The notes under the pieces were generated by a model. It saw only the letters and a program-made list of their open reading frames with translations, was not told the origin of the DNA and made no database searches. The position numbers and the translations under genes are program-made. From assembly GCA_017404985.1 (NCBI GenBank), contig JAFRBK010000023.1, positions 1 to 63,890 of the forward strand: a stretch of 63,890 bases of DNA, read 5' to 3'. Of the stretch, positions 22,369 to 34,093 are shown in pieces. Position 1 is the first letter of the stretch, and each line of letters opens with the position of its first letter. Source of the stretch: Clostridia bacterium. Lineage in GTDB: Bacteria > Bacillota > Clostridia > Christensenellales > Aristaeellaceae.

Positions 22369-23529
22369 TCAGACTGCCTTTTCCCTGGATCCGCCTGTGC
22401 GCGAAGCTTTCTGCCTGGACCTTTTTCTTCTGTACAGATATTCATCCGCTTTGGCGACCAGGCTGTCCATGGTCTGGCCCGGTTCATACTCCGTATACCC
22501 AATGCTGATCCTGAGCCGGAAAGGCAGGCTGGAAGACGCGTTATAGTCCCTGAACAATCCTACCGTACGGGCTTTATAGGCTTCCGGATTGTTATCGGGG
22601 AAGCCCATGACCAGAAACTCGTCCCCGCCGTAACGAACGACAACGGACCGCATGTTCTGAACGCTCTGCAGCAGGAGGCGCGCCGTGGCGATCAATGCCT
22701 GATCCCCCGCGGGATGCCCATACTGGTCATTGATCTGCTTGAAACCGTCCAGATCCATCATGAACAGGTACAGCCGGTTGTCCGGGGAGGAAAGCTTTGA
22801 ATATTCCGAAAACGCGTTATCCAGGGCCTTCCGGTTGTTCAGCCCTGTGAGGCTGTCCCGCATGACCTCCTGATCCAGCGCGCTCAGATAGATCAGGATG
22901 ATGGAAACGGAAGCGCAGGTCCAGGTCCCGGGCATGCCCGTAAACGGCATGGAGACGAGGGTGCCGACGACAGGGATCACATAGAAGCCGAGCAGCTTCC
23001 TGATTTCCTCCCGGGGGACAGCGCGGTTTTTCCGGACCAGGCAGTAAAGAATATGGAAGAAGGACACAAGCAGCATGGAAACGGCGCCGATCTCCTGCAC
23101 CCAGAACAGCGGCCCCCGGACATACACATTGTTTTCATCCACATAGAAAATCCAGCCGGTCTTGATCGACAGGATATTCAGGGCCAGAAAGACCAGGCCC
23201 GGCAGCAGAACAACCCATGACCATTTTTTCGGGATGTTGTAACCAAGGGCATCCAGCACATACAGATACCACATGCAGCCGAGCAAAACGCCGGCGCCGA
23301 GGAAAAGCGCATTGATGATATAATTGAGGGCAATTCCGCCGGGGAACTTTCTGCCGTCCACCAGCATCCAGAGAGTATCCAGCACAAGCACGGCCATGAT
23401 GCCGAAAACCACATTCCGGAAGCGGATGATCCGCATCTGCTGGTTGACGTTCCGGATGCTCTGCCAGACAATGACACACAGGATCAGGAGACAGATTGCA
23501 TTCAGCTCAATATGGATTGCCGCTTCCAT
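22369..23529 (-). CDS. Membrane diguanylate cyclase (GGDEF)
   Basis: 386 residues. Seven predicted transmembrane helices (residues about 10-215) form the sensor. A GGDEF domain follows: DSLTGLNNRKALDNAF, FMMDLDGFKQINDQYGHPAGDQ, and an intact VVVRYGGDEFLVMG with GGDEF at 301-305. It should make cyclic di-GMP from GTP at the inner membrane face. No inhibitory RxxD site is seen at the usual position before GGDEF. The 7TM sensor is of a class often found in clostridia; ligand unknown. Confidence 0.9.
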   Translation of the reverse strand: MEAAIHIELNAICLLILCVIVWQSIRNVNQQMRIIRFRNVVFGIMAVLVLDTLWMLVDGRKFPGGIALNYIINALFLGAGVLLGCMWYLYVLDALGYNIPKKWSWVVLLPGLVFLALNILSIKTGWIFYVDENNVYVRGPLFWVQEIGAVSMLLVSFFHILYCLVRKNRAVPREEIRKLLGFYVIPVVGTLVSMPFTGMPGTWTCASVSIILIYLSALDQEVMRDSLTGLNNRKALDNAFSEYSKLSSPDNRLYLFMMDLDGFKQINDQYGHPAGDQALIATARLLLQSVQNMRSVVVRYGGDEFLVMGFPDNNPEAYKARTVGLFRDYNASSSLPFRLRISIGYTEYEPGQTMDSLVAKADEYLYRRKRSRQKASRTGGSREKAV

Positions 23530-23630: not shown

Positions 23631-23659
23631 ATGACAAGGGGGGAAAAAAAGATTATAAT
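23631..23659 (+). promoter_or_regulatory. Promoter of the peptide-export operon
   Basis: ATGACA (23631-23636), 17-bp spacer, TATAAT (23654-23659), 50 bp before the first gene. It is the only strong promoter I see before 34.1 kb on this strand, so it probably drives all ten genes. Confidence 0.7.
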
Positions 23660-23709
23660 ATTGCATGCAAAGAGAAACAGAAAAACGGCAGAAAGGACAA
23701 AGAAAAGCG

Positions 23710-23949
23710 ATGAATGAAAAAGCAGTCAGGCTGAGCATGGAAGCGCTCAGGGCGGTCAGCGGCGGCCAGGAAAAACCGGACCTGGACTGGTCGCAGGTTC
23801 CGGAAGCATATCAGGAACAGTGGGATGACCTGTTTTCCATGCGCTACACCGCGGAAAAAAACGGGGACAGGGAAGCCTATGACCGGTACAGCGAGGAATT
23901 TACAAAGCTGACGCAGTTCCTGATGGAAAAATACAGCAGAGGAAACTGA
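23710..23949 (+). CDS. Small peptide with a double-glycine-type leader (candidate export substrate)
   Basis: 79 residues. The start MNEKAVRLSMEALRAVSGG reads like a double-glycine leader: hydrophobic residues at -4, -7 and -12 from the GG and a Val-Ser before it. Cleavage after Gly19 would release a 60-residue acidic, Tyr/Trp/Glu-rich peptide (DLDWSQVPEAYQEQWDDL, ... LMEKYSRGN) without Cys, so neither lanthionines nor disulfides are expected. It is the first gene after the promoter and lies 300 bp before a C39-peptidase exporter, the enzyme type that cuts such leaders. No nitrile-hydratase-like leader is present. It could instead be a small cytosolic helical protein. Confidence 0.6.
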   Translation: MNEKAVRLSMEALRAVSGGQEKPDLDWSQVPEAYQEQWDDLFSMRYTAEKNGDREAYDRYSEEFTKLTQFLMEKYSRGN

Positions 23950-24010
23950 AGAAACCAAGGGGAGCAACGCCTTCCCCCGCATCAAAATTTCCGGGAAAGG
24001 ATGAAGCTTG

Positions 24011-24232
24011 ATGGGCGGCATATACAGAGAAAAAGCAGTGCAGCGGGTGAACCGGCCTGAGGACCTGAACGACTATGTCCGCGTTACGACGCCCTCGGTA
24101 TGGATTGTGCTGATTGCAGTTTTGCTGCTGCTGGCCGGAATTCTGGCCTGGACGATCTTCGGGAGCGTTGACGTTCACAATGAAGACGGCTCCGTGACGG
24201 AAACGCATCCGATTTCCTTTGTGACGAACTGA
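24011..24232 (+). CDS. Miniature HlyD-like membrane anchor of an NHLM-type exporter
   Basis: 73 residues. YREKAVQRVNRPEDLNDYVRV matches the N-terminal cytoplasmic segment of NHLM-system HlyD proteins. One transmembrane helix follows (WIVLIAVLLLLAGILAWTIF), then FGSVDVHNEDG and only about 20 more residues. Normal HlyD adaptors continue for 250 or more residues with coiled coil and barrel domains; here they are absent and the stop is clean, with no trace of the missing part before the next gene 16 bp on. A TTG three codons' worth of bases (24008) upstream is an alternative start. It probably docks the exporter rather than spanning an outer layer. Confidence 0.72.
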   Translation: MGGIYREKAVQRVNRPEDLNDYVRVTTPSVWIVLIAVLLLLAGILAWTIFGSVDVHNEDGSVTETHPISFVTN

Positions 24233-24248
24233 AGGACGGGCCGGAAAA

Positions 24249-26438
24249 ATGGCAGAGAAGACAAAACTGAAGCAGCCTGTCGCAAAAGGTGTTGCGAAAG
24301 TGCCTGTGATCATGCAGCTGGAGGTGCTGGAATGCGGCGCCGCCTGCCTGGCCATGGTGCTGGCGTATTACGGCAAATGGCTTCCGCTGGAAGAGGTTCG
24401 GCGCGACTGCGGCGTTTCCCGGGACGGCAGCAATGCCGGGAACATCATGGAAGCGGCCGAAGGCTACGGCATGGAGGTTGAAGGCTACCGGATGGAGCCG
24501 GAGACGCTGCGGGAGGAAGGGACCTTTCCCTGCATCATTCACTGGAACTTCAACCATTTTGTCGTGTGCGACGGCTTCAGGGGAAAGAAGGTTTACCTGA
24601 ACGACCCGGCCAGGGGAAACTACGCGGTTCCCCTGGAAACCTTCGACGAGTGCTTTACCGGGATCGTTCTGACGATGAAGCCCGGGGAAAAATTCGTGCC
24701 GGGCGGGAAGCCGAAAAGCGTGTGGGACTTTGCACGCAAACGTCTGGAAGGGGCGCACACCGCCCTTTTGTTTGTTGCGCTGACGACGGTGATTTCCTCC
24801 CTGGTCGGGATTCTGAGCTCCGGGTTTTCCCGGGTATTTCTGGACAAAATGCTGACGGGCAAGGAGCCGGGCTGGTATGTTCCGTTTCTGGCAGGCATGT
24901 CGGCCATTGCCGTGATCAGCCTGGTGACCGCGTGGATTCAGGCGATTTATTCCCTGGCGCTGAACGGGAAGATGGCGGTGACCGGGAGCTCCGCTTTCAT
25001 GTGGAAAGTGATGCGGCTGCCGATGGAGTTCTTTACCCAGCGGATGGCCGGGGACATCCAGACGCGGCAGCGCTCGAACGCTTCCATCGCGGGACGGCTG
25101 GTGGACACGATCGGGCCGCTGGTGCTGGACACCCTGATGATGGTTTTCTACCTGGCGGTGATGCTGCGGTATTCATGGCTGCTGACGCTGATCGGCGTGG
25201 CCTCCGTGCTCCTGCAGCTCCTGGTATCCAACATCATCTCCAAAAAGAGGGTCAATATTACCCGGGTCATGATGCGGGACAGCAGCAAGCTTTCCGCAGT
25301 GACCACATCCGCCATGGAAATGATTGAGTCCATCAAGGCCAGCGGTTCGGAGAACGGGTATTTTGAAAACTGGGCGGGATACCAGGCTTCTGTCAACACG
25401 CAGAATAACCATTACACGGAGCTGAACCAGTATCTCGGACTGGTTCCGAAGGCATTGTCGGCCCTGGCGAACACGGCGATTCTGGTTCTCGGCGTCTGGC
25501 TGACGATGCGGGGCGAATTCACCGTCGGCATGGTGATGGCTTTCCAGGGCTTTCTCTCCTCCTTCATGAGCCCGGCTTATTCCCTGATCGGAGCCGGGCA
25601 GACGATCCAGGAAATGCGCACGGATATGGAGCGCGTTGAGGACGTGATGGAATACCCGGATGACGTGATGCTGGAAAAGCTCTCGGAGCCGCCGGAAGAC
25701 AAAAAGGAATACAAAAGGCTCAGCGGCCGCCTCGAGATGCGGAACGTTACCTTTGGGTACAACCCGATGCAGCGCCCGCTGATCGAGAACTTTAACCTGA
25801 CCGTGGAGCCCGGCCAGCGGATTGCCTTTGTCGGGACGTCGGGCTGCGGAAAGTCGACGCTGTCCAAACTGATCTCGGGCCTGTACCAGCCCTGGAGCGG
25901 GGAAATCCTCTTTGACGGCATTCCGATCCAGGAACTGGACCGGGAGGTTTTCACCAGTTCCCTCGGCGTGGTGGACCAGGATATCATCCTGTTTGAAGAT
26001 TCCATTTCCGGGAATATCCGGATGTGGGACGACACAATCGAGGACTACGAAGTGATTCTCGCAGCCCGGGACGCGCAGATCCACAACGAGATCCTGAAAC
26101 GGGAAGGCGGATACGAATACCAGGTGACCGAAGGCGGAAAGGATTTCTCCGGCGGAGAGCGCCAGCGGCTGGAAATCGCCCGCGTTCTGGCCCAGAACCC
26201 GACGATTCTCATCCTGGATGAAGCGACCTCCGCCCTGGACGCCCAGACGGAATACGACGTCGTCCGGTCGATCAATGACCGGGGGACGACCTGCCTGGTG
26301 ATCGCCCACCGCCTTTCCACCATCCGCGACAGCGACGAGATCATCGTGATGGACCAGGGCAAGGTTGTGGAACGCGGCACCCACCAGCAGCTCATGGAAA
26401 TGAACGGCATTTACAGGGCGCAGATCGCCAGCGACTGA
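24249..26438 (+). CDS. C39-peptidase ABC exporter (NHLM_ABC1/PCAT type)
   Basis: 729 residues. The N-terminal C39 peptidase has Cys29 (QLEVLECGAACLAMV), His103 (NFNHFVVCDG) and Asp119 (LNDPARG), so it should be active. A six-helix ABC membrane domain follows (residues about 170-450), then the ATPase with Walker A (GTSGCGKST, Lys535), signature FSGGERQRLEIARVL and Walker B ILILDEATSALD. Such proteins cleave double-glycine leaders and export the peptide. The overall form matches the first ATP-binding exporter of NHLM bacteriocin systems. It is flanked by the HlyD-like anchor and a small protein leading into a second exporter. Confidence 0.93.
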   Translation: MAEKTKLKQPVAKGVAKVPVIMQLEVLECGAACLAMVLAYYGKWLPLEEVRRDCGVSRDGSNAGNIMEAAEGYGMEVEGYRMEPETLREEGTFPCIIHWNFNHFVVCDGFRGKKVYLNDPARGNYAVPLETFDECFTGIVLTMKPGEKFVPGGKPKSVWDFARKRLEGAHTALLFVALTTVISSLVGILSSGFSRVFLDKMLTGKEPGWYVPFLAGMSAIAVISLVTAWIQAIYSLALNGKMAVTGSSAFMWKVMRLPMEFFTQRMAGDIQTRQRSNASIAGRLVDTIGPLVLDTLMMVFYLAVMLRYSWLLTLIGVASVLLQLLVSNIISKKRVNITRVMMRDSSKLSAVTTSAMEMIESIKASGSENGYFENWAGYQASVNTQNNHYTELNQYLGLVPKALSALANTAILVLGVWLTMRGEFTVGMVMAFQGFLSSFMSPAYSLIGAGQTIQEMRTDMERVEDVMEYPDDVMLEKLSEPPEDKKEYKRLSGRLEMRNVTFGYNPMQRPLIENFNLTVEPGQRIAFVGTSGCGKSTLSKLISGLYQPWSGEILFDGIPIQELDREVFTSSLGVVDQDIILFEDSISGNIRMWDDTIEDYEVILAARDAQIHNEILKREGGYEYQVTEGGKDFSGGERQRLEIARVLAQNPTILILDEATSALDAQTEYDVVRSINDRGTTCLVIAHRLSTIRDSDEIIVMDQGKVVERGTHQQLMEMNGIYRAQIASD

Positions 26439-26455
26439 CGGGGGAGGTGAACCGG

Positions 26456-26662
26456 ATGGGCATATATGACGAACAGGTCCAGGCGCGCAAGGCGTCGGAC
26501 CAGGAGAAATTTGTCGATTCCATATACGAGATTGCCGGTTCGGTGATGGGCCGGCGCGTCAGCGACGCCCTGAACGACGACCGACGGGTTGCGGAGGACG
26601 CGATCGGGGATATTCTGAAGTATTACCATGCCAAACCCGCAGAGGTACCGGAGGAACTCTAG
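26456..26662 (+). CDS. Small protein between the two exporters
   Basis: 68 residues, soluble and charged: a helix with KFVDSIYEIAGSVMGRRVSD, then DAIGDILKYYHAKPAEVPEEL. The tail ILKYYHAKPAEVP resembles the cytoplasmic N-terminal segment found before the RPSGIMRR-like region in long NHLM_ABC2 proteins, so this looks like a piece of the second exporter made as its own chain. ATG 26456 follows GGGGAGG by 8 bp. The stop lies 3 bp before the next ATG. A second peptide substrate is a less likely alternative, since no double glycine is present. Confidence 0.6.
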   Translation: MGIYDEQVQARKASDQEKFVDSIYEIAGSVMGRRVSDALNDDRRVAEDAIGDILKYYHAKPAEVPEEL

Positions 26663-26665
26663 GAC

Positions 26666-28663
26666 ATGAACGAGATCCTGGAATACCAGCTCCGGCCCCA
26701 CGGGATCATGCGCCGCAGCGTGAAGCTGGACGAAAAATGGGACAGGGAAGCATCCGGAGCGATGCTGGCCACCCGGAAGGACGACGGCACGGTGGTTGCG
26801 CTGATTCCGCTGGGCGTGAACCACTACCGCTTTTATGACCATAAAAACAAAAAAAACGTCGTGATTGACCGGCATAACCGGGGCCTGATCTCGGAGGATG
26901 CCATCGCATTCTATAAACCATTCCCGCTGAAGAAGCTGGACCTTCGCACCCTGCTCAAATATATTCTGGACCAGGTTGCCCTGTCGGATGTGGTGTATCT
27001 GCTGCTGGCCATGCTGGCGGTGCTGGGCGTGGGCATGCTCCTGCCCTGGCTGAACAATCTTCTCTTTTCCGATGTCATTGCGTCCGGCAGCTATCGGATG
27101 CTTCTGGGCGCAGCGATCTTCATGGCCTGCGCCACGCTGAGCCGCCTCCTGTTCGGCTCCGTCCGGGACCTGCTTTCCGCGCGGATCAGCATCCGGCTGA
27201 ACAATAACGTTCAGGCGGCGACGATGATGCGGGTGCTGTCCCTGCCGGTGAGCTTTTTCCGGAATTACAGCGCCGGCGAACTCAGCACCCGGGCCGGGTA
27301 CATGAGCACCCTGTGCAACCAGATCGTCCGGTCCTTTCTGAACACCGGGCTGACAGCGGTTTTCTCGCTGGCGTATATTTCCCAGCTGATGACCTATGCG
27401 CCGTCCCTGACCGTGCCGGCGCTGGCGGTGATGGTGCTGACGCTGGCGGTGACACTGGTGACCATCGTTGCCCAGATGAAGGTGACCAAACAGCAGATGC
27501 TGGTTTCCAGCCGGGAAAACGGCATGAGCTATGCCATGATCTCCGGCATTCAGAAAATCCGCCTGACCGGGTCGGAAAAACGGGCGTTTGCGCGGTGGGG
27601 ACGCCTGTATGCCAAGGAAGCGGCGCTGTCCTACAATCCGCCGTTTTTCCTGAAAATCAGCCCGGTCATTACCATGGCGATCTCGCTGGCCGGCACGATC
27701 GTGATTTATGCCTTTGCCATCCGGAACGGGGTCAGCGTCGCGGAATACTACGGTTTCAACACCGCCTACGGCGCGCTCAGCGGCGCCTTTTCGGCAGTGG
27801 CCGGGATCGCTTCGGTGATTGCCAATATCCGGCCCATGATGGAAATGCTGCAGCCCTTCATGGAGACGGTTCCGGAAGTGGCGGAAAACAAGACCGTTGT
27901 CACCCGTATTTCCGGCGGAATCGAACTGAACGACGTCACGTTCCATTATGAAGGCAGCGACCGGCTGATCCTGGACGATATGGACCTGAAGATCAAGCCC
28001 GGCCAATATGTGGCCATCGTAGGCCGGACGGGGTGCGGAAAGTCGACGCTGATGCGCGTGATGCTGGGCTTTGAGACGCCGCAGCGCGGCTCCGTATATT
28101 ACGACGGATATGACCTGAAGAAGATTGACCTGCGTTCCCTGCGCCGGAAGATCGGCACGGTGATGCAGAACGGGAAGCTTTTCAGCGGCGACCTTTATTC
28201 GAACATCGTGGTGACGGCGCCCTGGCTGACGATGCAGGATGCCTGGGAGGCGGCGGAAACCGCCGGCATTGCCGAGGAGATCCGCCGGATGCCCATGCAG
28301 ATGCATACCATGGTGCTGGAAGGGCAGGGAGGGCTTTCCGGCGGCCAGCGGCAGCGGATCCTGATTGCCAGGGCCATCGCCCCGAAACCGAAGATCCTGT
28401 TTTTTGACGAAGCCACCAGCGCCCTGGACAATGTGACGCAGAAGAAAATATCCGACGCGCTGGAAAACCTGAAATGCACCCGGGTGGTGATTGCGCACCG
28501 GCTGTCCACGATCCGGGCCTGCGACCGGATTCTTGTGCTGGACAACGGGAAGATTGCCGAAGACGGCACCTATGACGAGCTGATTGCGCAGAACGGCATT
28601 TTTACAGAGCTGGTTGCAAGGCAGCAGCTGGAGGACGAATCAACAAAGGGGAACGCGACATGA
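26666..28663 (+). CDS. Second NHLM-type ABC exporter (no peptidase)
   Basis: 665 residues. The N-terminus (LRPHGIMRRSVKLDEKW, then MLATRKDDGTVVALIP) is the cytoplasmic domain typical of NHLM_ABC2 proteins, replacing the C39 domain. Membrane helices span residues about 100-380. The ATPase has Walker A VGRTGCGKST, signature LSGGQRQRILIARAI and Walker B ILFFDEATSALD. With the C39 exporter it probably forms a heterodimer or two-step pump. The next gene starts inside its stop codon (ATGA overlap). Confidence 0.9.
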   Translation: MNEILEYQLRPHGIMRRSVKLDEKWDREASGAMLATRKDDGTVVALIPLGVNHYRFYDHKNKKNVVIDRHNRGLISEDAIAFYKPFPLKKLDLRTLLKYILDQVALSDVVYLLLAMLAVLGVGMLLPWLNNLLFSDVIASGSYRMLLGAAIFMACATLSRLLFGSVRDLLSARISIRLNNNVQAATMMRVLSLPVSFFRNYSAGELSTRAGYMSTLCNQIVRSFLNTGLTAVFSLAYISQLMTYAPSLTVPALAVMVLTLAVTLVTIVAQMKVTKQQMLVSSRENGMSYAMISGIQKIRLTGSEKRAFARWGRLYAKEAALSYNPPFFLKISPVITMAISLAGTIVIYAFAIRNGVSVAEYYGFNTAYGALSGAFSAVAGIASVIANIRPMMEMLQPFMETVPEVAENKTVVTRISGGIELNDVTFHYEGSDRLILDDMDLKIKPGQYVAIVGRTGCGKSTLMRVMLGFETPQRGSVYYDGYDLKKIDLRSLRRKIGTVMQNGKLFSGDLYSNIVVTAPWLTMQDAWEAAETAGIAEEIRRMPMQMHTMVLEGQGGLSGGQRQRILIARAIAPKPKILFFDEATSALDNVTQKKISDALENLKCTRVVIAHRLSTIRACDRILVLDNGKIAEDGTYDELIAQNGIFTELVARQQLEDESTKGNAT

Positions 28664-29481
28664 CGAAACACAGGGAAGCAGCCAGGGAGAGCTTTCTCCG
28701 CTATGCGGAACAATACGATACGGCAAACCCAATGATCCGGCATAAAATTGAGCACACCTTCCGCGTGGCAGAACTTTCTGAAAAATACGCGGCGGCGATG
28801 GGGATGACGCAGGAGGACGCGGACTGCGCGTGGTTTTTCGGGCTCCTGCACGATTTCGGGCGCTTTGAACAGGCCCGCCGCTACGGCACCTTTGTGGATT
28901 CCCAGTCCGTGGACCACGCGGAGCTGGGGGCGGACCTGCTTTTCCGGGACGGGCTGATCCGGCTTTTTCCGGCGGAGGAGTATCCGGAAGGAACCATCGC
29001 GATGGCTGAGCCGGTGATCCGCCTGCACAACAAGCTCACCCTGCCGGAAACGCTGGATGCCAGGACGCGGTGCTTTGCAGAAATCCTGCGGGACGCGGAC
29101 AAGACGGACATCTTTCGGGTGATTGCCAGCATTCCTTTCGAGGACCGGATCGGCAGCAGCAAGGGGCGCTTTACCGAAGAGGAGGGGGCAAGCCCGGCCA
29201 TCATGGCCTGCGTGGCGGAGCACCGGTGCGTGCCCGGAAAGCTTCGGCGATCCCGCTTTGACGGGCATATCGCCCACTGTTGCATGGCTTTCGAAATGGT
29301 GACGGAGGCGGGGCGCCGGACGGTACGGGAAGAGGGATGGCTTCAGAAGCTGCTGGCGGAAACCGATCCGGCAGGGAAGCCGATCTGGACGGAAAAAGAA
29401 ACCGAACAGCTGCGCACGCTGCGCAGCGAAATTGAAAAAGCATGGGGAGTTTCCCTGGAGGGACAGGAGGGACCGCAATGA
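28660..29481 (+). CDS. HD-domain phosphohydrolase
   Basis: 273 residues. HD-domain metal ligands: HKIEHTFRVAELS (first His) and FFGLLHDFGRFEQARRYGTF (HD pair), then DHAELGADLLF and a later DADKTDIFRV. HD enzymes cleave phosphate bonds, often in nucleotides or second messengers; the substrate is not deducible here. It overlaps both neighbours by 4 bp (ATGA), so it is translationally tied to the exporter and the acyltransferase gene. No signal peptide. Confidence 0.82.
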   Translation: MTKHREAARESFLRYAEQYDTANPMIRHKIEHTFRVAELSEKYAAAMGMTQEDADCAWFFGLLHDFGRFEQARRYGTFVDSQSVDHAELGADLLFRDGLIRLFPAEEYPEGTIAMAEPVIRLHNKLTLPETLDARTRCFAEILRDADKTDIFRVIASIPFEDRIGSSKGRFTEEEGASPAIMACVAEHRCVPGKLRRSRFDGHIAHCCMAFEMVTEAGRRTVREEGWLQKLLAETDPAGKPIWTEKETEQLRTLRSEIEKAWGVSLEGQEGPQ

Positions 29482-30452
29482 TTCTTGCACTGTACGGAGC
29501 CGGCGCCATGGGACGGGAATTCAAATATATCGCCGGGGAAACCGGGGAGTGGGCGGAGATCGTTTTTATTGACGACCACGCCGCCGCGGAATCGCTGCTG
29601 GGCTGCCCTGTGGTCGGGTTCCATACGTTTCGGAAACAATATGCTCCGGAAAACGTCCGGTTCGCGGTGACCATCGGTGAACCGAAATTCCGACGGGAGG
29701 CTTTTCAGCGGATGGAAGAGGCCGGATTTCAGGGCGCCAGGGTGGTCCATCCCTCCGCATGCATCAGCCCGGACGCCGAGATCGGGGAAGGCGCGGTGAT
29801 CGCCCACGGAGCGTATATCGGCTCCCAGGCGCGCATCGGGAAAAACTTCTATGGGGCCAAGGGCGCTTCCATCGGCCATGATGCCGTCATCGGGGACCAT
29901 ACCCGGATCGGGGTCGGAGCCTTTGTGGGCGGGCACACCGTGATCGGAACCAATGCATTTATCGGAAGCGGGGCCATGCTGAAGGACCGCATCCGGATCG
30001 GCGATTACAGCGTGGTTGCCATCGGAAGCGCCGTGTTCACCGACGTGGCGGACCATACCACGGTGATGGGCAACCCGGCCAGAATCTACAACGAAGGAAA
30101 CCAGGAACTGCTCTACGCCCCCAGCCGCGAAGCGGCGGAACAGGGCAGGGAGCAGGCGCAGGAAAAACCGGCCCGGGAGGAAGGACTTACGCCGGACCGG
30201 ATTGCCGAGCTGTACTGGGAAGCATTTTCCCGCAATTTCGAGGGCATGGAATTCAATCCTGTCACGTTCCACTTCCACGATTCCGGCTGGGATTCCATCG
30301 CACAGATGGGCCTGATCAGCCAGCTGGAAGACACTTTCCGCATTTCCTTTAAGGGACGGGAGACCATGAGGATCAACTCCTACCGCACCGGCCTGGAATA
30401 CGTGAAGAAAAAACTGGAAGAAACAGACAGGAAAAAGGGAAGCGAGGGCTGA
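29478..30452 (+). CDS. NeuD-like hexapeptide acyltransferase fused to an acyl carrier domain
   Basis: 324 residues. Residues 1-75 form a PglD/NeuD-type N-terminal fold (MILALYGAGAMGREFKYIA). Residues 80-210 are left-handed beta-helix hexapeptide repeats (SPDAEIGEGAVIAHGAYIG, IGTNAFIGSGAMLKD), ending NPARIYNEG. After a charged linker, residues 240-320 are an acyl carrier domain with GWDSIAQMGLI, Ser273 being the expected phosphopantetheine site. NeuD/PglD enzymes acylate amino or hydroxyl groups of sugars; a fused carrier suggests the acyl group is delivered from the pantetheine arm. The AMP-forming ligase that could load it begins 2 bp downstream. ATG 29478 overlaps the HD gene stop. Confidence 0.82.
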   Translation: MILALYGAGAMGREFKYIAGETGEWAEIVFIDDHAAAESLLGCPVVGFHTFRKQYAPENVRFAVTIGEPKFRREAFQRMEEAGFQGARVVHPSACISPDAEIGEGAVIAHGAYIGSQARIGKNFYGAKGASIGHDAVIGDHTRIGVGAFVGGHTVIGTNAFIGSGAMLKDRIRIGDYSVVAIGSAVFTDVADHTTVMGNPARIYNEGNQELLYAPSREAAEQGREQAQEKPAREEGLTPDRIAELYWEAFSRNFEGMEFNPVTFHFHDSGWDSIAQMGLISQLEDTFRISFKGRETMRINSYRTGLEYVKKKLEETDRKKGSEG

Positions 30453-30454
30453 CC

Positions 30455-31882
30455 ATGGGAAAACTATGGGATTTTGAGCCATACGGCGACGAAGCGGCGC
30501 TGATTACGGATACCGGGGGCGCGATCACATACCGCGCTCTGTCCGCTCTGGCAGCGGAAACGGAGGCTGCAATCGGCAAAGACGGCGGCAGGAAACCGGT
30601 GATGTTCGTATGCCGCAACACGCCGGGCGCCATTGCAGGCTACATTTCGCTCATCAACCTGGGATATCCCGTGCTGCCGGTTTCGGCGGACACCCGGGAG
30701 GAGACGAGAAAGGCCCTGATGAACCTATACCGCCCGGGATTCCTGATGGTGCCGAAGGACATGCGCCCAGGCTACGCCGCCATGAAGGAAGAAGGCGAAT
30801 TCAGGGACTATGTGCTGCTGAGGACCAACTACGGAGAAACCTATCCCATTCACCCGGAGCTGGGCCTTCTGATTCCCACATCCGGCTCCACCGGGTCCGC
30901 CAAATACGTCCGCCAAAGCTGGGAAAACCTGCGCTTCAACGCCGCGGCGATCGCAGGATGCCTGGGGATTGCCCCGACGGACAAAGGCATCACATGCCTG
31001 CCCCTGCAATATACCTACGGCCTTTCCATGCTCCATGCGAACCTGCTGCGGGGAGCGGCCACGGTGGTGACGGAGAGCGGCGTGATGGACCCGGAATTCT
31101 GGGACCTGTTTGAGGCGGAGGGGGTGACGCTTTTCCACGGCGTGCCCAATACCTACGAGATGCTGCACCGGATCGGGCTGTTCGAAGACGATTTTCCGAG
31201 CCTGCGCACCCTGAGCCAGGCCGGCGGAAAGCTTTCCCGGGAGCTGCAGGCATACTATGCCGGCTATGCCGAAAAAAGCGGGAAGCGCTTCATCATCATG
31301 TACGGGCAGAGCGAGGCGACGGCCGCCATTACCTGGCTGCCTCCGGAGGATGCCCTGCGGAAGCCGGGATCCGTCGGCATCGTGATTCCGGGCGGAAAGA
31401 TCAGCCTCATCGACGCGGAGGGGAATCCCGTAACCGGGGAAAATAAACGCGGCGAGCTGTGCTACGAAGGGCCCAACGTGGCCATGGGCTACGCGCAGCA
31501 GGGCGAGGACCTGGCGAAGGGGGACGAAATGCACGGCCGGCTGCGGACCGGGGACATTGCGGAGATCGACGGGGAAGGATATGTGGCCGTCACGGGCAGG
31601 CTGAAGCGATTCATCAAGATGGCCGGGCACAGGATCAGCCTGGACGAGGTGGACAGCATCATCATGGACGAACTGAACATTCCCAGCGCCAGCGTTGGGA
31701 CAGACGACCATCTGGCGGTATTCGTGACAGACGAACAGTACAGGGAGATGGTGGGCGCCCTGATCCGGGAGAGAATCAGCGCGGCCCAGAAAGGCCTCCG
31801 GGTGCTGGTGATTTCCGAATTCCCGAGAAACGAGGGAGGGAAGATTCTCTATGCCGCGCTGCAGGAAGGAGCGGAAAAATGA
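30455..31882 (+). CDS. AMP-forming acyl ligase (ANL superfamily)
   Basis: 475 residues. Core motifs: TSGSTGSAKYVRQSW (P-loop, from residue 142), YGQSEATAAITWLP (A5), GELCYEGPNVAMGY, LRTGDIAEIDGEGYVAVTGR (A7-A8), KRFIKMAGHRISLDEVD, and a C-terminal NEGGKILYAAL whose Lys is the adenylation lysine. It should activate a carboxylic acid as acyl-AMP and load a thiol, most likely the carrier domain encoded directly before it. The substrate pocket cannot be read by eye. It overlaps the hydrolase gene by 4 bp. Confidence 0.87.
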   Translation: MGKLWDFEPYGDEAALITDTGGAITYRALSALAAETEAAIGKDGGRKPVMFVCRNTPGAIAGYISLINLGYPVLPVSADTREETRKALMNLYRPGFLMVPKDMRPGYAAMKEEGEFRDYVLLRTNYGETYPIHPELGLLIPTSGSTGSAKYVRQSWENLRFNAAAIAGCLGIAPTDKGITCLPLQYTYGLSMLHANLLRGAATVVTESGVMDPEFWDLFEAEGVTLFHGVPNTYEMLHRIGLFEDDFPSLRTLSQAGGKLSRELQAYYAGYAEKSGKRFIIMYGQSEATAAITWLPPEDALRKPGSVGIVIPGGKISLIDAEGNPVTGENKRGELCYEGPNVAMGYAQQGEDLAKGDEMHGRLRTGDIAEIDGEGYVAVTGRLKRFIKMAGHRISLDEVDSIIMDELNIPSASVGTDDHLAVFVTDEQYREMVGALIRERISAAQKGLRVLVISEFPRNEGGKILYAALQEGAEK

Positions 31883-32754
31883 TGAGAAACGACGGTAAAC
31901 GGGCGGGAATCGTTCAAAACACAGCTGGACTGCTGATTCTGCTGATTCTTTTGGCGCTGCTCCCCGCGGCTTCCGCGGGCGGGGAGGCGGCGGAAGCCCT
32001 TTCCTACCGGGTGGAGGAATGCAGCCTGGAACGGGACAGCATGCACCTGTTCGGGGAACTCTATCTGCCGGAAGGCGCGGAGGGGCCGCTTCCGCTGGTT
32101 ATTCTCTGCCACGGCCTGGGAAGCAACCATGAGAAAATGGTGCCCTACGCGGAGTTTTTCGCCGAAAACGACACCGCTGCCTACGTGTTTGATTTCATCG
32201 GCGGAAGCGAGGTAAGCAGGAGCGACGGAAAGATGACGGAGATGTCCGTGCTCACCGAGGCGGAGGACCTGGACGCGGTGATTGACTATTTCCGCGGAGA
32301 CGAACGGTTTGCGGAAGGCAAACTCTTTCTCTTCGGCGGAAGCCAGGGCGGGATGATCTGCCTGTATACGGCAGGAAAGCGGCCCGGGGATATCGCGGGG
32401 CTCGTGGCGCTGTATCCGGCGCTGAACCTGCAGGACATCTGCCGGCAGGACACAGCGAACGGCGTTCCGGATACCGTGCAAATCAGAAACCACATTGTCG
32501 GCAGCGTGTATCTGAAGGATATGCTTACCTTCGACATCTATGAGGTGATGAAAAACTATACGGGCCCGGTGCTGCTGATGCACGGGACGGCGGACCCCAT
32601 GGTTCCCGTAAGCTACGCAGAGAAAGCGGCCGAGGTGCTTTCCGACGCGGAACTGATCATCCTGGAGGGCGCTGGACACGGCTTCAAGGGAGCGGATCTG
32701 GAGCGGGCCGCAAACGACGCCCTCCGGTTCATCCGGGGAGAAAAACCGGAATAA
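31879..32754 (+). CDS. Secreted alpha/beta hydrolase
   Basis: 291 residues. ATG 31879 overlaps the ligase stop (ATGA) and begins a signal peptide (LLILLILLALLPAASAGG). The fold follows: LPLVILCHGLGSNHEKM (oxyanion loop), nucleophile elbow LFGGSQGGMI, Asp in LLMHGTADPMVPV and His in EGAGHGF, so the triad Ser-Asp-His is complete. It resembles carboxylesterases or acyl-peptide hydrolases acting outside the cell. In this operon it could remove an acyl group from the exported product or from a wall polymer; this is inference. Confidence 0.85.
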   Translation: MMRNDGKRAGIVQNTAGLLILLILLALLPAASAGGEAAEALSYRVEECSLERDSMHLFGELYLPEGAEGPLPLVILCHGLGSNHEKMVPYAEFFAENDTAAYVFDFIGGSEVSRSDGKMTEMSVLTEAEDLDAVIDYFRGDERFAEGKLFLFGGSQGGMICLYTAGKRPGDIAGLVALYPALNLQDICRQDTANGVPDTVQIRNHIVGSVYLKDMLTFDIYEVMKNYTGPVLLMHGTADPMVPVSYAEKAAEVLSDAELIILEGAGHGFKGADLERAANDALRFIRGEKPE

Positions 32755-32773
32755 AGAAAGGACAGCAGGAATT

Positions 32774-34093
32774 TTGTCAACACAGCTCATTATCTGCCTG
32801 GTTATCTTCGGGCTGACGTGCATCGGCTATCTGACCGGCGCGGGGAGCCTGGCCGCTGTGGCTATGGCCTCCGTTGCCGCCCTGAGCCTGACCGGGTGCC
32901 TCACCGCGGAGGAGACGCTGGCATACTTTTCCAACGGGACCGTGATCATGATTGGGGCCATGAGCGTGGTGGCTGCCGGCTTCGGCAGGACCCGCTTCTG
33001 CGCCGGCCTTGCCGGCGGAATCTCACGGGCCGCCAAAGGCCGGCCCGCCATGGTGCTGCTGCTTTACTGCATCCTGACGATGCTCCTGAGCCAGATGGTC
33101 CAGAGCCCCGTGGTCGTCTTCGGCATTGCGGCGCCCCTGTGCATGGCTTCCGCAGACGCCATGGGGATTCCCAGATCCAGATTTGCGCTGGCGCTCGGCG
33201 TCGTTTCCATTGCCACATGCAGCACGCTTCCCATCGGGACCGGCGCCACCCAGGCTGCTGAGCTCAACAGCTACATCAGCGCATACTACGACAAGATTGC
33301 GAACTTCTCCGGAACCCTGCCGGAGATGGGCTTTTTCGATCCCATGAAGGCGCGGCTGCCCATGCTGGTTTTCACGGTGATATACTGCGCCCTGGCCATG
33401 CCACGCTTCACGCCTGACCGCACGGCAGGGGAGGCGGGAGACGAGGTTGCGAAGGGAGCCACAAAGCCGCCGCTGGCAGCCTTTCCGGAAATCGCCGGCA
33501 TCGTAATCTTTTTCGGAACGGCCGCGGCGCTCATGCTCCAGGCCGGCGCGCTCCGGTTCCTCGCCGCCTGGCAGATTTGCCTGGCCGGTGCTGTGCTGAT
33601 GGTCTTCTGCGGCGTGCTGAAGCCGAAGGAAGCCGGGGAAGCCATTCCCGTGAGCATGCTGCTGCTGATTATCGGGGCGCTGGCCATGGCGGGAGCCCTT
33701 TCCGGCACCGGGGCGGGCAGCCTGATCGGCGGCTGGATTGCGGGGCTGGTTGAATCGGCCCACAATAACTATCTGGTCGGGTTCATCTTCTTCTTTTTCC
33801 CGTTTCTGCTGGCCCAGTTCATGTCCAACCGGGGCGCCATGCTGCTCTTTTTCCCCATTGCCATCGCGGCCTGCCATCAGGTCGGCGGCGATCCCCGGGG
33901 CCTTCTGATCCTGATCGAGGCAGGGGCCTTGACGGCGTTCATGACGCCCATGCCGACCGCCGCTGTGCCCTATATGATGGCATACGGCGGATACCGCCAG
34001 CAGGACCTGGTGAAAGGCGGCTGGCTCTACGCCGTCATCAGCTGCATCCTTTCCGTCGGCTGGGTGATGACTGTCATGCCTGTATTGCCGTGA
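32774..34093 (+). CDS. SLC13/ArsB-type permease
   Basis: 439 residues, about 11-12 membrane helices. The ion-transporter features are two related halves with loops such as GTVIMIGAMSVVAAGFGRTR, SQMVQSPVVVFGIAAP, TLPIGTGATQ and LAQFMSNRGAMLLFFPIAIA. Relatives move di- or tricarboxylates or oxyanions with sodium or protons. The start is TTG (32774) behind AGGACAGCAGGA. It is the last gene of the operon, 19 bp after the hydrolase, and may import the acid used by the ligase or handle a product of the secreted hydrolase. Confidence 0.8.
   Translation: MSTQLIICLVIFGLTCIGYLTGAGSLAAVAMASVAALSLTGCLTAEETLAYFSNGTVIMIGAMSVVAAGFGRTRFCAGLAGGISRAAKGRPAMVLLLYCILTMLLSQMVQSPVVVFGIAAPLCMASADAMGIPRSRFALALGVVSIATCSTLPIGTGATQAAELNSYISAYYDKIANFSGTLPEMGFFDPMKARLPMLVFTVIYCALAMPRFTPDRTAGEAGDEVAKGATKPPLAAFPEIAGIVIFFGTAAALMLQAGALRFLAAWQICLAGAVLMVFCGVLKPKEAGEAIPVSMLLLIIGALAMAGALSGTGAGSLIGGWIAGLVESAHNNYLVGFIFFFFPFLLAQFMSNRGAMLLFFPIAIAACHQVGGDPRGLLILIEAGALTAFMTPMPTAAVPYMMAYGGYRQQDLVKGGWLYAVISCILSVGWVMTVMPVLP

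Follow-up and report, generated by a model that had tools for sequence, protein, structure and literature searches.

An NHLM-like exporter and a conserved acyl-activation module in one gene row of a Clostridia bacterium

Introduction

The closest described relative of the exporter reported here is the NHLM/NHLP export system, which is represented by the families TIGR03794, TIGR03796, and TIGR03797 (BMC Biol 2010, PMC2887384). Our locus resembles this system in having an ABC transporter with a C39 peptidase domain, a second ABC transporter without peptidase, an HlyD-type protein, and a Gly-Gly peptide (PMC2887384). It differs from the system in that its HlyD-type protein comprises 73 amino acids (aa), its second transporter is split by a stop codon and scores under the family cut-off, its precursor has no NHLP/N11P match, and an acyl module stands behind the second transporter. 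Furthermore, thiazole/oxazole or lanthionine enzymes are absent from the ten products of the locus.

The acyltransferase of the acyl module, here named NeuD-ACP, shares its N-terminal domain, beta-helix, and residue H134 with the sugar acyltransferases NeuD, PglD, and VioB (TIGR03570). Unlike these proteins, it is fused to a putative C-terminal carrier, and sugar-nucleotide genes are absent among the ten. Stand-alone AMP ligases with a carrier of their own are known as the DltA-DltC type. The window ligase and carrier resemble such pairs in consisting of a stand-alone ligase and its own carrier; in contrast to them, the carrier is fused to a cytosolic acyltransferase, and by family score the ligase is far under the DltA cut-off (82 versus 476 bits). 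A search limited to open-licence papers found no published description of an HD/NeuD-ACP/ligase cassette.

Results

The window, i.e., the whole stretch of 63,890 nucleotides that was analyzed, is contig C3 of a 2.98-Mb draft genome (52 contigs, 85% complete) from a relative of rumen Clostridia. It contains a plus-strand gene array at positions 23710 to 34093. An earlier note on this DNA had described ten plus-strand genes under a strong promoter, with gaps of no more than 60 bp. All ten frames are present, but the one read as a 68-residue protein is the N terminus of the second ABC transporter (ABC2), and the gap between the leader peptide and HlyD genes measures 61 bases. At positions 23631 to 23659 of the plus strand, a sigma-70-like promoter site (ATGACA-17-TATAAT) agrees with the consensus at 11 of 12 positions; since the pattern scan found 12 sites versus 5.9 expected in shuffles, the match is weak by itself. 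Further promoter-like sites lie within ABC2 at 28071 (10/12) and 28404 (9/12), and terminator-like sites occurred at chance frequency (17 versus 16.8 expected). The three ATGA overlaps mentioned in the note were located as four-base overlaps between ABC2 and HD (28660 to 28663), HD and NeuD-ACP (29478 to 29481), and ligase and hydrolase (31879 to 31882).

The array and a divergent GGDEF-like gene upstream of it (22369 to 23529; named by eye) have one intergenic region in common, which holds the leader promoter site and a minus-strand promoter-like site (23597 to 23569). Among 11 chosen genomes, the divergent flank neighbor was matched in one and the downstream CBS-like neighbor in none.

The array starts with the gene of a leader-type peptide of 79 aa (23710 to 23949), in which a 19-aa leader ending in VSGG, a Gly-Gly site, is followed by a 60-aa core without Cys. 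The peptide belongs to no Pfam family and has no NCBIfam match at an E value of 0.1, and thus no NHLP/N11P precursor match. No relative was found at an E value of 0.01 among the loci compared, and the best further match in its own genome is weak (E value, 0.96).

The mini-HlyD gene (24011 to 24232) encodes a membrane anchor with a short tail, 73 aa in total. It matches only positions 1 to 44 of the 421 positions of TIGR03794, with 29 bits versus a cut-off of 156. Counted from the furthest start, HlyD has 72 to 96 aa in 4 of the 41 related loci with an HlyD match (L072, L073, L074, and L101) and 140 to 263 aa in the other 37; L104 has no match. HlyD is therefore small compared with the 421-position model at every locus where it was matched. 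Judged from its sequence relatives, the mini-HlyD is a lineage trait.

ABC1 (24249 to 26438; TIGR03796 and PF03412) is a C39 peptidase-permease-ATPase scoring 934 bits, above the TIGR03796 cut-off of 853. The core of ABC2, a permease-ATPase without C39 matching TIGR03797, extends from 26666 to 28663, and its N-terminal part (26456 to 26662) is closed by an in-frame TAG at 26660 to 26662. A separate 68-residue gene was rejected, as this part has the same frame as the core and the six-frame TIGR03797 match covers both with the one TAG inside; counted whole, ABC2 thus spans 26456 to 28663. Both parts are fused in the relative L009, and none of the 42 other related loci has an in-frame stop in the tested ABC2 stretch. 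The TAG may be a real variant or reflect an error in the sequence. ABC2 stays below the TIGR03797 cut-off of 709 bits, scoring 684 bits alone and 692 when its N-terminal part is included, as do the unsplit relatives L072 (704) and L009 (697). In line with the proposed twin NHLM-type exporter with a leader peptide, ABC1 over its cut-off, ABC2 just under it, and the Gly-Gly site support an NHLM/NHLP-like exporter with a Gly-Gly peptide. The small size of HlyD and the absence of modifying enzymes were also borne out: family scans of the ten products revealed no lanthionine, YcaO, or radical-SAM protein.

Among 45 genomes of the genus, 33 contained ABC1 matches at an E value of 1e-160 or better (51 matches, one of them the window's). 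We read 42 of the 50 nonwindow matches, 40 of which extend 800 bases or more beyond ABC2. At each of these loci ABC1 was followed by ABC2, a few being cut by a contig end; two further ABC pairs of the window's own genome are included. HD, NeuD-ACP, or ligase genes were found at none of the 42. The eight unread matches (G150, G175, G173, G132, G165:C24, G177:C247, G176:C7, and G161:C13) had no ligase match (E value, 1e-30) on the same contig. Relatives differ in the genes that follow ABC2. In L073 (11599 to 14471), two STAS genes, a SpoIIE gene, and an HATPase_c_2 gene stand directly behind the NHLM-like ABC2, resembling a partner-switch regulator set within an export operon; by eye, L074 has similar genes there. 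About 6 kb behind the NHLM-like pair, L074 (17152 to 18075) also encodes three similar peptides of 78 to 101 aa in tandem. The first two have a Gly-Gly site; for the first, neither Pfam nor NCBIfam gave a match at an E value of 0.01.

The acyl module of the window begins with an HD-domain phosphohydrolase-like protein (28660 to 29481; PF01966). It is followed by NeuD-ACP, a NeuD/PglD-type beta-helix acyltransferase with a putative acyl carrier domain (29478 to 30452; TIGR03570), an AMP-forming acid ligase (30455 to 31882; PF00501, 148 bits), an S33-type alpha/beta hydrolase (31879 to 32754; PF12146, 71 bits), and an SLC13/DASS-like permease (32774 to 34093; CitMHS, PF03600, 116 bits). The HD, AMP-binding, hydrolase, and CitMHS matches are all over the Pfam cut-offs, and the NeuD part is over that of TIGR03570 (184 versus 161 bits). 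The permease is under the TIGR00785 cut-off (104 versus 199 bits). By eye, the hydrolase has an N-terminal hydrophobic, signal-like segment. The carrier tail scores 19.3 bits with PF00550 (cut-off, 20.8); its Ser273 is invariant in 20 sequences, and an AlphaFold model of NeuD-ACP (mean pLDDT, 69) places helices in the tail, one of which starts at Ser273.

Other key residues were also invariant: H134 of NeuD, which we take to be the catalytic His, in 20 aligned sequences; H64, D65, and D147 of HD (model pLDDT, 89) in 18; and the TSGSTG motif and Lys463 of the ligase in 13. Presumably, these residues and Ser273 have the roles known from their families. Given this invariance, the ligase, acyltransferase, carrier, and HD protein look active. 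The sole solved relative of the HD protein at an E value of 1 is the HD hydrolase 2pq7 (20.8 bits). The solved structures closest to the NeuD part are a pilin glycosylation protein (4m98), VioB, and perosamine N-acetyltransferase. A defence system was considered and rejected, since PADLOC, run on the eight products other than ABC1 and ABC2, gave nothing beyond weak Cas3-HD scores (23 to 26 bits), which belonged to the HD protein.

In the genus, ligase matches at an E value of 1e-30 occur in 12 of the 45 genomes, and the HD, NeuD-ACP, and ligase trio occurs in seven, the window's included. The trio has a patchy distribution, requiring at least four changes on a valS tree that covers 30 of these genomes; G156, G151, and G168, which are among the nearest species by valS (90 to 92%), carry it. 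At an E value of 1e-60, NeuD-ACP was found in its own genome only among 391 genomes of the class; at 1e-20, it was matched in 6 of 150 genomes of a family sample, at full length in two, its own and G112. When 84,980 species genomes were scanned by motif, 25 loci were obtained, of which L136, a plain NeuD relative (28%), was left out. Six of the remaining 24 (L115, L116, L121, L122, L127, and L129) are contigs of genus loci, so that the two sets are not independent.

HD stands beside NeuD-ACP in 21 of the 24 module loci, and the ligase is present in 23, the exception, L135, ending inside NeuD-ACP. A hydrolase (57 to 59% identity) lies directly upstream of HD in seven loci, and L125 has one of 39% on the far side of the module. 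Relatives of the SLC13 permease (60 to 77%) stand beside the module in nine loci, in two pieces in L123 and L124. None of the 24 loci contains an NHLM pair, and in L135, the nearest locus by HD (75%), the gene upstream of HD is divergent and unrelated. In the relatives, the hydrolase gene precedes HD and the SLC13 gene faces the ligase or precedes HD, whereas the window has the two genes behind the ligase and on its strand. Since the two genes recur in another order or orientation, we infer that the window holds a rearranged version of a set of five genes that belong together. As judged by gene content, HD, NeuD-ACP, ligase, hydrolase, and SLC13 form a real module, in which the hydrolase and SLC13 are shared only partly. 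The row of ligase, carrier, and acyltransferase noticed earlier is thus a conserved module that recurs in other loci, and the trio, partly with hydrolase and SLC13, represents a compact conserved cassette.

Genome G186 has a second, cut-down trio copy (L186:7613-9509), with HD run into NeuD-ACP and a shortened ligase, which adjoins a Gly-Gly peptide and the N-extended ABC exporter described below. In L036 and L037, a more distant ligase paralogue was observed together with separate NeuD and carrier genes, transketolase, thioesterase, LuxE, and LuxC. In L033 (7557 to 9326), a MATE transporter with a C-terminal extension lies directly behind the ligase and is a further exporter type by the module.

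A different, N-extended ABC exporter is encoded near the module in 7 of the 24 loci. It lies directly upstream of HD in L126 (a fragment at a contig end), L127, L129, and L131, directly upstream of NeuD-ACP in L128, and on the opposite strand, about 4 to 5 kb away, in L115 and L116. The last four bases of the exporter gene are also the first four of HD in L127 and L129, as with ABC2 in the window. At an E value of 1e-150, this exporter was found in 7 of the 45 genus genomes, namely, all six nonwindow trio genomes (G151, G168, G112, G166, G186, and G156) and 1 of 38 trio-less genomes. The association with the trio has a Fisher P value of 1e-6, but the query had been chosen for its nearness to the trio in four of the six, so that only G186 (53% identity) and G156 (49%, on a different contig from the trio) are independent. 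The window genome, which is 85% complete, had no match at this E value. In the nine SLC13-type loci, no such exporter scored over 400 bits in the flanks read, some of which were short. A GHKL-like reading of the N-terminal extension, made by eye, was dropped: Pfam lists none at an E value of 1, and against one HATPase_c_2 protein, a profile comparison reached a probability of 0.6%.

Gly-Gly peptides were also found near the module. Counting the window, a motif scan matched 8 of the 25 module loci, and 6 after L122 and L130 had been set aside as false by eye. Among 40 control stretches (751 kb from ten genus genomes, three stretches under 7 kb), one was matched and judged false by eye, leaving 0 of 40. 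The Fisher P value against these controls is 0.002 for 6/25 and 0.006 for 5/24, although the motif was fixed after examples had been seen, which makes the counts post hoc, the controls were not matched per locus, the module loci are of unequal length, and L119 and L120 are near-copies. As raw hits, 6 of the 42 NHLM loci also matched the motif. Five peptides with a conserved DGTV core form a family, A5 (L116:4680-4913, L119:13943-14176, L120:13969-14202, L186:9564-9806, and L188:5385-5603); the member tested has no Pfam family over cut-off. A5 is spread over 20 of the 45 genus genomes at an E value of 0.1, many matches being weak, and occurs in the window's own genome (G000:C47). Because several members adjoin TRAP-transporter-like genes (named by eye) and the family is spread over the genus, its position near the trio may reflect an indirect association. 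In L229 and L240, A5 members adjoin phage-like genes (by eye). Gly-Gly leader peptides with LysM-like cargo are encoded in L030 (17126 to 17473; passes Pfam LysM) and, by eye, in L119 (212 to 448 and 7210 to 7446).

Discussion

A reading of the ten genes as one system was not supported. The note had named a consistent lack of acyl genes beside the exporter pairs of relatives as evidence against its interpretation, and this largely holds: within the genus sample, acyl genes were found at 0 of 42 NHLM loci, and in the wider scan an NHLM pair was found at 0 of 24 module loci. Likewise, acyl genes recurring beside an exporter and a precursor, as in an acylated RiPP cluster, were seen in neither set. 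The gene content and order of the window are plain, and each module is present without the other elsewhere. We therefore favor, with a probability of about 0.6, the reading that two self-sufficient modules have come to stand in a single row of genes in this lineage, where they need not act on one product. As relatives have either one without the other, their joining is probably lineage specific; the arrangement was seen in one genome only, and the row may be cotranscribed.

Under the two-module reading, ABC1 would cut the 79-aa peptide behind Gly-Gly and export it together with ABC2 and the minimal membrane anchor, in the manner of NHLM/NHLP systems. In the acyl module, a putative carboxylic acid substrate would be imported by the SLC13 permease or released outside by the hydrolase. 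The ligase would activate the acid, which may then be loaded on the carrier domain, and the beta-helix domain might drain the carrier by passing the acyl group on to an acceptor, either an amine or an amino sugar. The HD protein would act on a phosphorylated acceptor or product.

The overlap of ABC2 and HD at their exact gene ends counts against two separate modules, since it suggests coupled translation; so do the four-base overlap of another ABC exporter with HD in L127 and L129 and the Gly-Gly peptides near the module. Alternatively, exporter and module may be coupled: an acyl group made or attached by the module would leave via whichever ABC exporter heads the operon, the NHLM pair of the window having replaced the N-extended exporter of relatives. 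This coupling would fit the presence of the N-extended exporter in all six other trio genomes, often directly upstream of HD, its lack of a match in the window genome, the patchiness of the trio on the valS tree, and the Gly-Gly peptides near the module. We consider it a reasonable but less likely alternative, given that the exporter query was preselected by nearness to the trio, that the nine SLC13-type loci lack such an exporter over 400 bits in their flanks, that the genus-wide A5 peptides may be neighbors only, and that the window genome is incomplete. Still more doubtful is the broader claim that HD, NeuD-ACP, and ligase are an export-linked acylation cassette of rumen Clostridia, acting on a Gly-Gly peptide or its partner with interchangeable ABC exporters. 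If the exporter link is true, the locus combines peptide export with acylation by ligase, carrier, and transferase; if it is false, it is a warning against reading one operon as one pathway.

That sequences of different origin were wrongly joined at the ABC2/HD border is very improbable. The draft consists of 52 contigs and the arrangement occurs in one assembly only, but ABC2 and HD are both whole and overlap exactly, the kilobase containing the join is flanked by sequence with a G+C content of 0.599 upstream and 0.618 downstream, and three of the nearest species by valS carry the trio. Compatible with two modules, and a tentative possibility of somewhat better standing than coupling to the exporter, is that the acyl module contributes to a surface glycan, producing an N-acyl amino sugar from a carrier-bound acyl group independently of the peptide. 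The ten products include no aminotransferase, dehydratase, or glycosyltransferase, which speaks against a glycan product. The structural proximity of the NeuD part to 4m98, VioB, and perosamine N-acetyltransferase is in its favor, as is the ligase paralogue that stands with separate NeuD and carrier genes in L036 and L037.
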